In this document: in pieces, positions 12,601-20,224 of the stretch
Numbering within the stretch: the stretch's first letter is position 1
Layout: every line of letters begins with the position of its first letter
Origin: a virus
Virus record (IMG/VR): IMGVR_UViG_3300028287_000033
Coordinates: 1-23,519 of that record
DNA length: 23,519 nt
Reading direction: 5' to 3' (one strand)
Notes under the pieces: generated by a model
Database searches by the model: none
What the model was told of the DNA's origin: nothing
The model's input: only the letters and a program-made list of their open reading frames with translations
Position numbers and translations under genes: made by a program

Positions 12601-12642
12601 AGAGGCTCCTTCCTTGGAACAATCTTTGGGACAAATGACTAA
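9613..12642 (+). CDS. Large internal virion (ejection) protein, T7 gp15-like
   Basis: This 1009-aa, mostly helical, Ala/Gln/Ser-rich protein is the middle of the three internal core proteins. In T7, gp15 (747 aa) and gp16 form the periplasmic/inner-membrane channel for genome entry. The N-terminus is basic (VIREKRQFQIGRIGVARASQSGR) and the body contains many amphipathic helices. No membrane segment or enzyme motif is visible. The start ATG 9613 has AAGGGG about 11 nt upstream, 20 nt after the previous stop. The stop TAA overlaps the next ATG. It is longer than T7 gp15, as is common in marine podoviruses. Confidence 0.85.
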   Translation: MAVIREKRQFQIGRIGVARASQSGRVVGDAISRSANILGDMFYREAAAEAEKAGTEAAQSVDREQVITINPETGEPEAYAAPAGMGSIGTDAYQRVVMRRFQQSIEDEIRNKGKEIAVRYENSANGVALYESAMSDYLASMTNVAQDQFKGFITDVGTTYLNATTTNMRVAQVKRERIVARRSQEAAVSDGLQNIEAMVAQMGPAALNGPTVTNGVIQSVSATNSDGGKAGLFSPSEVNGHDSATRLAITRGLVRHASQQSDDPDTLRLLQQAIGTQNPNAVPDEFSAVADAMRGFGSDYSGLAKLEQFSDGLLGDQVQYTEVVQRRETEAQKAEDALTVFDMQNDVAGLTLSAKAFSVNRGPLAVANRSRDDWSAFTERARSQLAAGDKAISDQTLEERDAVLEAQASGLYARALSGLSTDDTDALENAIANRNPMLAPESARLELNALMRMEAATGQPILENFMPEISSYRSSAGKNVDSINQVAASQQALEVDLRSILYAEDVEGTLGERVSQINSIENLKDNERQAMISSAYLNAGTNNLNTFFANGSLNEDQLREARSVFEGGSFQTGVLSNAQVDQINQARAYAQDAGKLSQLRTTFNSQVGTVNSRIKAQEEATQASLQKASIEMGQASPTIKSDREVYEEMLSDKYANGQDISALWGSTESVTNPVALNILNDVTQKGVLPQSLHNTLTSLAEGEFRIGNPNAVLSHYMNVRDYQFEGQSINNRAINSLSQAQIAMLNYLADVVDVEGNISGDKMAAIYNQKVEFDRNPTKQESVKQLLDAPLEEFVLSLDGMKEAPYSAVNAIASATLSLASMGASRREIKRRLEDQMERTYPDGQGYVVNPNGGERTKFSLGQVAQGNEKLFKNHVRDIVSRTTNLTNFSFGGDLVRATTGRPGFIPAEDTVYLVPLDESSNGEVRYLVKRMRPLEEGGDEVLNGTFAEGETSYTAPVIISNRDSEFTDAVRNVQLIQQSQEIKKAKEAEAFSGTGRGSFLGTIFGTND

Positions 12643-15600
12643 TGGCTGATCTCAACCGCTACTCTCCCGCCCTCTTTGAACGCACTATTGTTTCAGAGAA
12701 ATCATCTTTTGGGGAGGCCGCTGGTGCTACATTAGGGCTTCGGTTCGCCCCTGCGATTGATAGTGCTGCGACGGGGATTAAGTACGCGGGGCAGGAGCGT
12801 GATCCCAACTTTAAGTGGGAAGATAATCTTGGCGATTATGGCCTCTATGCTACAAGCCTGTACGGCGCAAAGAACGCACAGCATATGGCGCAGTTGAAAG
12901 CAAACATTGATCGAAGCATTCAGCGCCGAGAAGTTTTGTCCAACTCTACTATGATGACCCAGCTGGGTGCTGGCTTAGTTGATCCTATTAACTTCGTTGC
13001 CCTCCCCCTTGGCGGTCCAAGTTTAGGTTTTTTAAAATCTGCGGTTCGTGTGGGTGTCGGCACTGCTGCTGTTGAGGGTACTGCTGAAGCTATTAACTTA
13101 CAGCTAGACCCAGTTAAAACTCTTGAAGAAGCTACAATAAACACTGCTTCTGCTGCGCTGTTTGGGGGCGTGTTGGGTGGTGCGGTCAGCATCCCAATGT
13201 CACGTCGGGCTGCTGCATTTGAAAGGGTAAACAAGTCAAACGCTGAGATGTTTGATATGGTTAATCGCATCGAGAACTTAGATGGGCTAACGCCAAGCGA
13301 TATTCGCAGCGCCCCTGTAAGAACAGAGCGACCCCTTGGCTCCTTAGAAGATGCTGAGATTAGAGAAACCATTCGGACCTATGAGGCTGACGCGCAAAAG
13401 ATTGAGGCTGACGGTGCGGCTGAGAGAGCAAGTGAGGTTAGAAATGAAGCTCGATCCTATCGAAATGAGTTGGGTCTTCGTCAGCTAGAGGCTGATAACA
13501 TTGACCTCGATAACCCTTATGATCTCAAGTCAAACTGGTTCATCAACAGCCCGCTCTACAAGGCGGTTTCTACGCCTATGAAGCGCACCTTGCAGGGTAA
13601 GTACCCCAACGCTGTAAAGGAGTCATTCCTACGCGCCTTTGGCGATAATGGCATGACCCTAGCGATGAACTCGATTGGCCTTCCTACGCCTCAGTCTGTG
13701 GCTGTAAGGACTGCTGTGTCTGCTGGTCGGTGGGTCAAGGCTCAGGATGAGATGGTAAAGTTGTGGGCTGCTGATACTGACGCATCTGTGGCCTCCCGCT
13801 TGGATATAAACTTTAGCGATGTTGCTCGTCGCGGAATGCGTTCTGACCAGACCTACAGGCAGTGGCTTACCAATGTGAGTGAGAAGCGCTTGCGTGGTGT
13901 CACTGACCTGAATGAGAATGAGTTGAAGGCTTCAAGTGTTATCAACAAATACTTTGAAGATGCAGAGGCTCGACTTCAGGAGGTTGGTCTTCTTAGCGAT
14001 GCCAAGGGTATGGCTCGCCAGATTGAGATGCTCGAGCTTGAAATTGCTGGATTAAAGTCCAGCCTAGCTGATGTACGCAAGACTTCCATGGAATATGAAA
14101 TGGTTGATGCTCGCATTAAGAAGCTAGAGGGCAGAATGTCTGGGCTTGATGGTATGCGATCAGAGCCTAATGCAGCCTTTGATAAGGATGTTTTCTTCCC
14201 ACGCTTCTTTGACAAGGGCGCTATCCGCAACCGCCGAGAAGAGTTTTCTAATGTTCTCTACAACTGGTTTGAAAAGAACCCGTATGTTTACCGCATGGAT
14301 GGCGACACGCCTGTAAAGATAGACCTTAGCACTAACCCAGAAAAGATCATGGAGCGCGTTAATCAAACGATTGATGGCATTCTTGGTGAGGCTGATCCCC
14401 TCAACCTAGATACTGTTTCATTTGGTATGGGTCGATCCAAGCACTTTCGCAGTCGTCAGCTAGATATTCCAAACAAGCTAGTCACTGACTTTATGATGAA
14501 AGACCCGCTGGCTGTAATGAAGACCTATGCTGCGCGGATCGAGCCTCGATATGAGTTTGCTAAACAGTTTGGCAAAGACCTCGATGGTGTTCGCTTCGAC
14601 ATTGAGCGTGCTATGGTTAAGGATGGTAAGAGTCGAGCAGAGATCAACAAAGTAATGCGCGACTTCAACCATATGTATGATCGCACTATTGGTACTGTCT
14701 TAGAAAACCCAGACGCTCTTAGCCAGAAGGCTGCGTTTGTTCTTCGTGAGGCTGCTTCGTTTAGTTACATGGGTTCCTCTGGTCTTGCTGCTATCCCTGA
14801 CTTTGGGCGTATCGTTATGGAATACGATATGGATAACGTCTGGAAAGGCGTCCAAGCGCTGCTGGATAAAGAGCGTGTCAACATGAACGTTGATGAGGTT
14901 CGGCTTGCTGGTGAAGCAATCGACATTCTTAAAGGCAGCGCCCACATGCGATTGATGGAGGATATGTCTAACAACATTGATGCCAACGATCTTTTAAGTC
15001 AGACGCGAAACGCCTTCTACATTCTCAATGGCCTCGCTCCCTTGACTACGCTGGCAAAGCAGCTTGCTGGTGTTATCGATGCGCACACCATCATCGACTA
15101 CTCAATTAAGTTGGGCAAAGGCCAGCTTGATGATCAAGGCGTTGAATGGCTTGCGCGGTACGGCATCGGCAAAGAAATGGCAGAGAAGATTGCTAGAGCA
15201 CCTTATGAGAAGACAGAGAATGGCTTCTACATGGCTAACACTGAGCAGTGGGCAGATAGCATTTACATCCCTGAAATCGAAGGTAAGCAGGTTCGTCTGA
15301 TTGAACTGAATGAGGACGGCACACCTGTTGGTAAGTCGCGCAATGGTCGATACATTCCCGCATTCTATAACGATAAAAGAAAGACGATTAACTTTGATCG
15401 GGACTATATCGAAGGTGAGATGTTTGAAAGTAAGGGTTGGCTAGCGCCTAAGATGCAGGGCGTAAATGCGTTGCCTGATATCTTCAAGACTCCAAAGCAG
15501 TGGGCTAACTTTGTTATGCTCCATGAAATCAATCACTCTCGTTTCCGTCCAGAAGATGTTGGAATATTCGCTGATCTTGCTTTGCAGGAGCCTATAGTTA

Positions 15601-16667
15601 TTCAAGCCGCTTCTGACAAATTTACCTTTGAAAGAACATACTATTCTGTTGGCATGATGCGCCGAGAGTTTGAGCAAATCGAAGTTGATGTTGCGCGGCA
15701 GGCTGAGTTGTTATCGGCGTTTCGTGATGCCAGTGTTCGGCCTCGTGAAGTTGAAGATTTAATCCAAAACTACGAGCAGAATATTGCTATCCTAGATCAG
15801 CTTGCAGAAGCTCTGGATAAGCCTGAATATAAAGCAAGAGGTCAGCTTGAGGACTCTTCTGGTCGAATTAGGCAGTTTAGCAAAGAACAGAAAGCTAATT
15901 ACGAGAATCGTATTAACGAGCTTGCTATGAAGGACTATCGTGAGGCTCAGACCCTCAATGAAGAGACGGTTACTCAGTTCCGCGCAGCTCTTAACAGCGG
16001 TGTTCTTAATACTATTATGTCAGGCACTCCTGCCGATAAGCCCATCATTACTGATGGTATAGTCTACATCCCAATGAGTGTGGCCTCTAAGTTTGGCATG
16101 AAAGAACACCCTAAGTTCAAAGGCTACGCTCGCATTGAGAATGGCCTGATGGGCTTGCCTTTCCAGTTCTACAGCTTTGTCCTTGCAAACGTGAACAAGA
16201 CCGTTGGTGCGCTGGCTCAGGGTCAGATTAAGAACCGTGCGATTGGCTCTGCTACGATGATGGGCTTGGCCTATATGTCTTTGCAGCTACGAACGCCTGA
16301 GTACATTTGGAATGATATGAGTGCGCAAGATCGCTTTGCTCGCAGCTTTGATATGAGCGGGATTATGGCTCTGTACTCAGATGTATTCTACACTGCTATG
16401 CATACGTCATTGGCGCTCGGCGGTCCTAACATTACTGGTGGCTTGCTGTCTCCCAAGTTCAATCAACAGGCTAGTGTTGCTGATGCAATTACTGGGCTTG
16501 CTGGCGCTGGTCCGTCTTGGGGCTACGATACTGCTAAGGGTGTAGTTAATTTTGCCAGCGGCAACTACGGCGAGGGCGGCAAGGATATTGTGCGCAACCT
16601 ACCATTTGCTCGTATGTGGTTTCTCAAGGATGATGTGAATCAGATCACTAACGCTTGGGCTAACTGA
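12642..16667 (+). CDS. Giant internal virion protein, T7 gp16-like, with HExxH peptidase-like domain
   Basis: This 1341-aa protein (T7 gp16 is 1318 aa) should be the inner-core ejection protein that enters the host cytoplasmic membrane. The order seen is an N-terminal region with Gly/Ala-rich helices (about residues 110-190), a coiled coil at about 455-500, a zinc-peptidase-like motif HEINH at 961-965 preceded by KTPKQWANFVML, a Glu-bearing helix YENRINELAM near 1087-1096, and a C-terminal region typical of gp16-like proteins (GLPFQFYSFVLANVNKTVGAL to NAWAN). I see no soluble lytic transglycosylase signature at the N-terminus, unlike T7 gp16. The zinc site is inferred. It is coupled to the gp15-like gene by TAATG. 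Confidence 0.88.
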   Translation: MADLNRYSPALFERTIVSEKSSFGEAAGATLGLRFAPAIDSAATGIKYAGQERDPNFKWEDNLGDYGLYATSLYGAKNAQHMAQLKANIDRSIQRREVLSNSTMMTQLGAGLVDPINFVALPLGGPSLGFLKSAVRVGVGTAAVEGTAEAINLQLDPVKTLEEATINTASAALFGGVLGGAVSIPMSRRAAAFERVNKSNAEMFDMVNRIENLDGLTPSDIRSAPVRTERPLGSLEDAEIRETIRTYEADAQKIEADGAAERASEVRNEARSYRNELGLRQLEADNIDLDNPYDLKSNWFINSPLYKAVSTPMKRTLQGKYPNAVKESFLRAFGDNGMTLAMNSIGLPTPQSVAVRTAVSAGRWVKAQDEMVKLWAADTDASVASRLDINFSDVARRGMRSDQTYRQWLTNVSEKRLRGVTDLNENELKASSVINKYFEDAEARLQEVGLLSDAKGMARQIEMLELEIAGLKSSLADVRKTSMEYEMVDARIKKLEGRMSGLDGMRSEPNAAFDKDVFFPRFFDKGAIRNRREEFSNVLYNWFEKNPYVYRMDGDTPVKIDLSTNPEKIMERVNQTIDGILGEADPLNLDTVSFGMGRSKHFRSRQLDIPNKLVTDFMMKDPLAVMKTYAARIEPRYEFAKQFGKDLDGVRFDIERAMVKDGKSRAEINKVMRDFNHMYDRTIGTVLENPDALSQKAAFVLREAASFSYMGSSGLAAIPDFGRIVMEYDMDNVWKGVQALLDKERVNMNVDEVRLAGEAIDILKGSAHMRLMEDMSNNIDANDLLSQTRNAFYILNGLAPLTTLAKQLAGVIDAHTIIDYSIKLGKGQLDDQGVEWLARYGIGKEMAEKIARAPYEKTENGFYMANTEQWADSIYIPEIEGKQVRLIELNEDGTPVGKSRNGRYIPAFYNDKRKTINFDRDYIEGEMFESKGWLAPKMQGVNALPDIFKTPKQWANFVMLHEINHSRFRPEDVGIFADLALQEPIVIQAASDKFTFERTYYSVGMMRREFEQIEVDVARQAELLSAFRDASVRPREVEDLIQNYEQNIAILDQLAEALDKPEYKARGQLEDSSGRIRQFSKEQKANYENRINELAMKDYREAQTLNEETVTQFRAALNSGVLNTIMSGTPADKPIITDGIVYIPMSVASKFGMKEHPKFKGYARIENGLMGLPFQFYSFVLANVNKTVGALAQGQIKNRAIGSATMMGLAYMSLQLRTPEYIWNDMSAQDRFARSFDMSGIMALYSDVFYTAMHTSLALGGPNITGGLLSPKFNQQASVADAITGLAGAGPSWGYDTAKGVVNFASGNYGEGGKDIVRNLPFARMWFLKDDVNQITNAWAN

Positions 16668-19564: not shown

Positions 19565-20224
19565 ATGAGACATCTCGACAGCATCTACATACACTGCACG
19601 GCTACGAGGGCCGAGTGGTGGGCAGACCGACGCTCTAGCGAGAAAGCCGCTGAGTGCAAGCGCTGGCACCTTGATCGAGGGTGGAGCGACGTGGGCTACC
19701 ACTACTTCGTGGATCGCGATGGCACTATCACCGAAGGTCGCCCTATCGAGAAGACGCCAGCCGCTCAGAAGGGCCACAACACAGGCTCTATAGCTATTGC
19801 GCTTTGGGGTGGTCACGGCGGCAACCAAGACGATAAGTTCGAAGACCACTTTACGCCAGAGCAGGACCGAGCGCTGCGCAAGCTGATCGCTCAACGGCGT
19901 ATGGAGTACCCATCAATCACAAAGGTGCGAGGGCATAACGAGGTGAGCGCCAAGCAGTGTCCTTGTTTTCAGGTGGCACCATGGATGAACGGCGCAGAGG
20001 CCGAGAAGAAGCCAGCGCGCAAACGCATTTCTCAGACCAAGACAGTCCGCAGTTCTACTGTTGCAAAGCTAGCGACGTTAGCCTCACCTGCAACGATTGC
20101 CACTGTCGGTGGGCTGGAGTGGCAGAAGCTGCTTATCATGGGCGTGTTCGCTTTGGTAGCGATGATGGCCTTGGGCGTGATTGATTTGGAGCGCCTCAAA
20201 AAGTGGAACTTGGGAGACCGCTGA
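19565..20224 (+). CDS. N-acetylmuramoyl-L-alanine amidase (endolysin) with C-terminal membrane segment
   Basis: This 219-aa zinc amidase would cut the bond between muramic acid and L-Ala in peptidoglycan. The first 140 residues align by eye with T7 lysozyme: HCTAT with zinc ligand H10, GWSDVGYHYFVDRDG with catalytic Y45, NTGSIAIALWGG, RGHNEV with ligand H124, and K130-Q-C132 with catalytic Lys and ligand Cys. All key residues are present. Unlike T7 lysozyme (151 aa), it continues with a basic linker (about 145-162) and a hydrophobic segment (about 189-206) followed by a charged end, so it is probably membrane-tethered. GAGGAAG precedes the start. Its stop TGA shares two bases with the Rz start (TGATG). 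Confidence 0.93.
   Translation: MRHLDSIYIHCTATRAEWWADRRSSEKAAECKRWHLDRGWSDVGYHYFVDRDGTITEGRPIEKTPAAQKGHNTGSIAIALWGGHGGNQDDKFEDHFTPEQDRALRKLIAQRRMEYPSITKVRGHNEVSAKQCPCFQVAPWMNGAEAEKKPARKRISQTKTVRSSTVAKLATLASPATIATVGGLEWQKLLIMGVFALVAMMALGVIDLERLKKWNLGDR
20212..20216 (+). promoter_or_regulatory. Ribosome binding site that fixes the Rz start
   Basis: GGGAG lies 7 nt before ATG 20224. This favours that start over an upstream ATG at 20203, which has no such site and would overlap the amidase by 22 nt. Confidence 0.65.

Follow-up and report, generated by a model that had tools for sequence, protein, structure and literature searches.

Proteins of the gp16 type are known for crossing the cell envelope and pulling in the phage DNA, and the locus described here raises the question of what an HExxH motif would do in such a protein. 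The window (the whole stretch of viral DNA analysed, 23,519 nucleotides) encodes a 1341-aa gp16-like ejection protein whose only HExxH is HEINH. We lean towards the reading that residues 874-1109 form a zincin-like metallopeptidase of the polyvalent type, which would be ejected, act on the cytoplasmic side and most likely cleave a host protein early.

The window contains a T7-like structural block comprising terminase, portal, scaffold, capsid, tail tubes, gp14-like, gp15-like (probable) and gp16-like proteins, tail fibre, amidase and exonuclease (Table 1). Membership of the 1341-aa protein in the gp16-like family follows from its match to the PHROG 342 profile, and it shows 26% identity over 65% to a protein of Pelagibacter phage Hodr. 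Hodr's portal and the window's share 63% identity, so the host is likely marine and perhaps of SAR11 type. No DNA match to the window was found among 50,697 phage records.

Table 1. Positions in the window of the gp16-like gene, its predicted metallopeptidase module and selected surrounding genes.
Feature	Position	Strand	Basis
gp14-like internal virion protein, 148 aa	9146..9592	+	PHROG 418, E 7e-5
Probable gp15-like ejection protein, 1009 aa	9613..12642	+	Lies between gp14-like and gp16-like genes; gp15 identity inferred from gene order
gp16-like ejection (internal virion) protein, 1341 aa, carrying the module	12642..16667	+	PHROG 342, E 3.1e-37, residues 13-871
First part of zincin-like module, residues 874-975 (beta strands, helix, HExxH helix)	15261..15566	+	Homologue alignment; AF2 models; absent in L009-L012
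HEINH, residues 961-965 (two predicted zinc ligands and catalytic Glu)	15522..15536	+	Invariant in homologue alignments A2 and A3
Nested insert, 103 aa, residues 976-1078 (predicted beta hairpin and antiparallel helical hairpin)	15567..15875	+	Absent in L002/L003; AF2
Glu helix, residues 1079-1109, with YENRIN	15876..15968	+	Glu kept in 45/45 sampled domains; AF2 helix
Glu-1088 codon (GAG), predicted third zinc ligand	15903..15905	+	Sequence reading
N-acetylmuramoyl-L-alanine amidase, separate gene	19565-20224		PF01510, E 3.5e-16

Chance is expected from composition to produce 0.004 HExxH motifs per protein, and one was present in 17 of 5000 shuffles. An earlier note on this DNA had placed HEINH at residues 961-965, where its codons are indeed found, with KTPKQWANFVML before it; in the translation this stretch directly adjoins the motif on its N-terminal side. 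The note had also proposed structure prediction and an alignment of homologues as checks. AlphaFold2 (AF2) modelling of a relative with the compact form of the domain, using 41 diverse sequences, gave a pLDDT of 92.4 and a pTM of 0.86; its beta strands and a first helix are followed by the HExxH helix and then the Glu helix. The window's own model (pLDDT 77) contained the same elements together with a beta hairpin and a helical hairpin formed by the insert. The beta-like stretch noticed earlier at about residues 902-930 coincides with AF2 strands at about 907-910 and 915-918, and Glu-1088, the candidate third ligand, sits in an AF2 helix. In the proposed active site His-961, His-965 and Glu-1088 would hold zinc and Glu-962 would activate water. 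The confidently predicted fold of the compact relative is compatible with a meeting of the three ligands.

Conservation was analysed among relatives recovered from viral contig scans, which showed about 35-85% identity in their best segment; HExxH was kept in every relative whose contig extends to the site. A sample independent of the motif was drawn with the upstream pattern KAWTKP[KR]xxxGV, which gave 46 loci, or 45 domains after one spurious 60-aa frame was left out. HExxH, lying within one helix in the AF2 models, was present in 44 of these, and the Glu of the later helix in all 45. The residues corresponding to H961, E962, H965 and E1088 are thus retained, and the zincin-like domain first suggested from the sequence agrees with both the homologues and the predicted fold. 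Values of dN/dS were 0.01-0.22 (estimable pairs only). The module is probably an active zinc protease.

A direct search with the pattern HExxH...YE(N/D)xIN revealed at least 120 stretches in viral contigs, and among the matches listed nearly all also carry the upstream stretch, which lies outside the pattern. In bacterial and archaeal genomes (257 Gb) a slightly stricter pattern matched four times, each time spuriously, so that as far as this pattern reaches the module looks specific to viruses. A bacterial origin was rejected, the four genome matches being tiny out-of-context frames, and no plasmid relatives of the module were found. Xanthomonas phage X1 gave a weak match without HExxH and was discarded.

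Searches of the module against Pfam, PHROGs, NCBIfam and PDB sequence profiles returned nothing significant. A fold search with the insert-bearing window model also returned nothing, the helical insert dominating, and the compact relative's model was used in its place. This model matched other phage giant proteins (best E 1e-6) and nothing in the PDB, so that neither sequence-profile nor fold searches of the PDB found a solved homologue. The best named structural match outside the family was a SprT-like phage protein, A0A7M1RXV6 (E 0.055, probability 0.95), a weak match below significance to what is, unlike the module, a separate 101-aa protein.

We then compared the module with the zincin-like metallopeptidases of polyvalent proteins (MPTase; Iyer et al. 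2017, PMC5512222; Pfam PF18818), for which 12 clades have been published and in which the inserts between the two helices vary. Both occur in phage-delivered proteins and both run from an HExxH helix to a Glu helix (PMC5512222). The published MPTase core has a lone helix on the N-terminal side of its sheet (PMC5512222), and the module agrees with it approximately (beta sheet, one helix, HExxH helix, Glu helix), the order having been compared by eye. In contrast, PF18818 did not match the window or eight related records, even at E 10. It also fails to match N4, an accepted MPTase, and therefore covers only part of the class. In a term search of PMC5512222, neither gp16 nor ejection or internal virion proteins came up. 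The N4 virion RNA polymerase likewise carries an HExxH zincin-like domain, C1, inside an ejected phage protein (PMC12633501, PMC8472413), but this carrier differs from the gp16-like scaffold; homology of C1 to the module was rejected (no hmmsearch match, hhalign probability 1.9). Judged by its predicted fold, the module is zincin-like, a variant of the polyvalent MPTase kind outside PF18818.

Placement of the module was surveyed in 133 non-redundant ORFs. The gp16 scaffold was matched in about 100 of them; the module occupied the window's site in 60 ORFs and several earlier sites in other gp16-like ORFs, and was absent from the gp16-like proteins L009-L012. As read from these sequences, the module is widespread among uncultured phages and so far has no family name. 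The gp16 scaffold bears a conserved, unannotated predicted protease module in about 100 sampled proteins of uncultured viruses, and a degenerate form of it in one cultured isolate. That isolate is Hodr (L008). No other cultured relative with the domain was found, and in Hodr the domain lies at another gp16 site (residues ~275-361 of its gp16-like protein). The remaining 33 ORFs had no detectable gp16 scaffold, and many were very large. The module was seen in eight phage proteins of about 2100-3300 aa (L065, L088, L093, L094, L148, L161, L166 and L217); most of these lacked a scaffold match when tested, and they are likely polyvalent proteins. One protein found later exceeds 3300 aa.

T7 gp16 is partially similar to the window protein as an ejection-protein scaffold, but has an N-terminal transglycosylase (PMC8954989) and no described zincin. 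When the module sites of gp16-like proteins were aligned to it, they fell at about 408-503, 704-709, 822-841, 994-1026 and 1067, all within or at the edge of residues 411-1118, a part that lies between two membrane regions and that published topology places in the host cytoplasm (PMC8954989). This clustering is only suggestive, since the alignment is weak (scaffold profile versus T7 gp16, E 1e-7 and 0.0016) and roughly 60% of the scaffold falls in the cytoplasm-assigned part regardless. By analogy with the T7 topology, a module built into the C-terminal third of the gp16-like protein would be packaged in the head, ejected with the DNA and carried to the inner membrane's cytoplasmic side, and would most likely cleave a host protein there early in infection. 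It is a compact, testable candidate for an enzyme that marine phages put to work in the opening minutes of an infection.

The main rival to a protease of the host cytoplasm is self-processing, in which the module would cleave its own gp16 or a partner among the virion proteins and so release or refold parts. The cut could come ahead of packaging, inside the head or during ejection. Self-processing has been proposed for polyvalent-protein MPTases, with the processing of P1 DdrB as precedent (PMC5512222), and is in keeping with a module found inside the scaffold at several sites. However, the N4 virion RNA polymerase, which bears an MPTase, is packaged unprocessed (PMC5512222), and a cut at the window's site would detach a conserved C-terminal segment. 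We regard self-processing as possible but rather doubtful. We consider it unlikely that the domain plays no enzymatic part and is structural, whether zinc-stabilised or dead. Such a role would account for the Hodr copy, which has lost both zinc histidines (KEVYR) while retaining FENRIN, and for L193, the one domain of the 45 without HExxH, which reads HEAEN; as the Hodr copy indicates, the domain may serve some lineages in a non-catalytic way. The catalytic Glu would be dispensable at a structural site, however, and this residue and all ligands are kept almost throughout a sample that is very diverse.

We also considered whether a peptidoglycan endopeptidase or envelope protease might stand in for a missing transglycosylase during passage through the periplasm. 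The earlier note had seen no transglycosylase signature at the N-terminus, and none was found: Pfam had no match in the 1341-aa or the adjoining 1009-aa protein, and PHROG 342 ('with endolysin domain') aligned to the 1341-aa protein only from profile position 215. Such a domain is not universal among gp16-like proteins. Pfam and NCBIfam searches detected no peptidoglycan hydrolase domain in the 1009-aa protein, neither a transglycosylase nor a lysozyme domain was detected in the window's ejection proteins or in the upstream proteins from five relatives, and the window's amidase, probably its endolysin, is a separate gene. In contrast, every site that was mapped belongs to the portion of gp16 assigned to the cytoplasm, which makes a protein target likelier than peptidoglycan crosslinks, a substrate the note had entertained, and the same module occurs in many giant proteins that are not gp16. 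A role in the envelope is accordingly quite improbable. A non-peptidase HExxH enzyme, such as the alpha-ketoglutarate-dependent HExxH hydroxylases noted in the N4 polymerase paper (PMC12633501), is very improbable, as the small predicted fold agrees with the published MPTase core and other HExxH enzymes gave no fold match.

If the module is a protease acting on the host, the exchangeable insert beside its active site may determine which substrates are cut or bring in a second activity. The long insertion suspected earlier between HExxH and the Glu helix is borne out by the closest relatives, L002/L003, which lack its 103 residues. The compact arrangement of HExxH and YE(N/D)RxN mentioned in the same note is also real, most relatives having 18-27 residues from the start of HExxH to YEN. 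Longer spacings were found in the window (126), L028/L029 (131), L030 (137), L043 (138) and L051 (264), and L004, whose contig stops within the domain, has a long insert as well. The window and L028/L029 inserts are diverged copies (about 27% identity), those of L004 and L030 form a common second type, and those of L043 and L051 look, by inspection, unrelated to the other types. L051 and L054 are 92% identical in the N-terminal part and 98% in the C-terminal part, and only L051 has a 245-aa insert. L006, whose C-terminal scaffold is 95% identical to the window's, carries a much diverged, different HExxH...YENRI domain at the window's site (residues ~40-240 of a partial gp16 ORF) and, on this comparison, represents module replacement there. 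These comparisons indicate that a zincin is retained at the site while its sequence and inserts are swapped. From the aligned sequences, the position separating the two zinc helices is an insertion hotspot within the clade, and illustrates module exchange inside one single functional domain.

More tentatively, marine T7-like phages might inject a cytoplasmic protease that is retuned by insert swapping, some inserts being second effectors (ADP-ribosyltransferase-like in L051), and gp16 would then be a modular platform for early-infection effectors; we think this broader picture conceivable but on balance doubtful. The L051 insert had no family match in Pfam, PHROG, NCBIfam or PDB and the L043 insert had none either. 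The ART-PolyVal model matched neither at E 10, so the ADP-ribosyltransferase reading of both is by eye only. In L051 the insert (gp16 ORF residues ~1011-1255) resembles the H-Y-D type, with YFVHFTR, VMYFTQD and SDFFVFNKDKV. The different insert of L043 (gp16 ORF residues ~1013-1130; TRIYRFAV...GRWFSDDLEEAQWY...EKELFVS) appears faintly ADP-ribosyltransferase-like.
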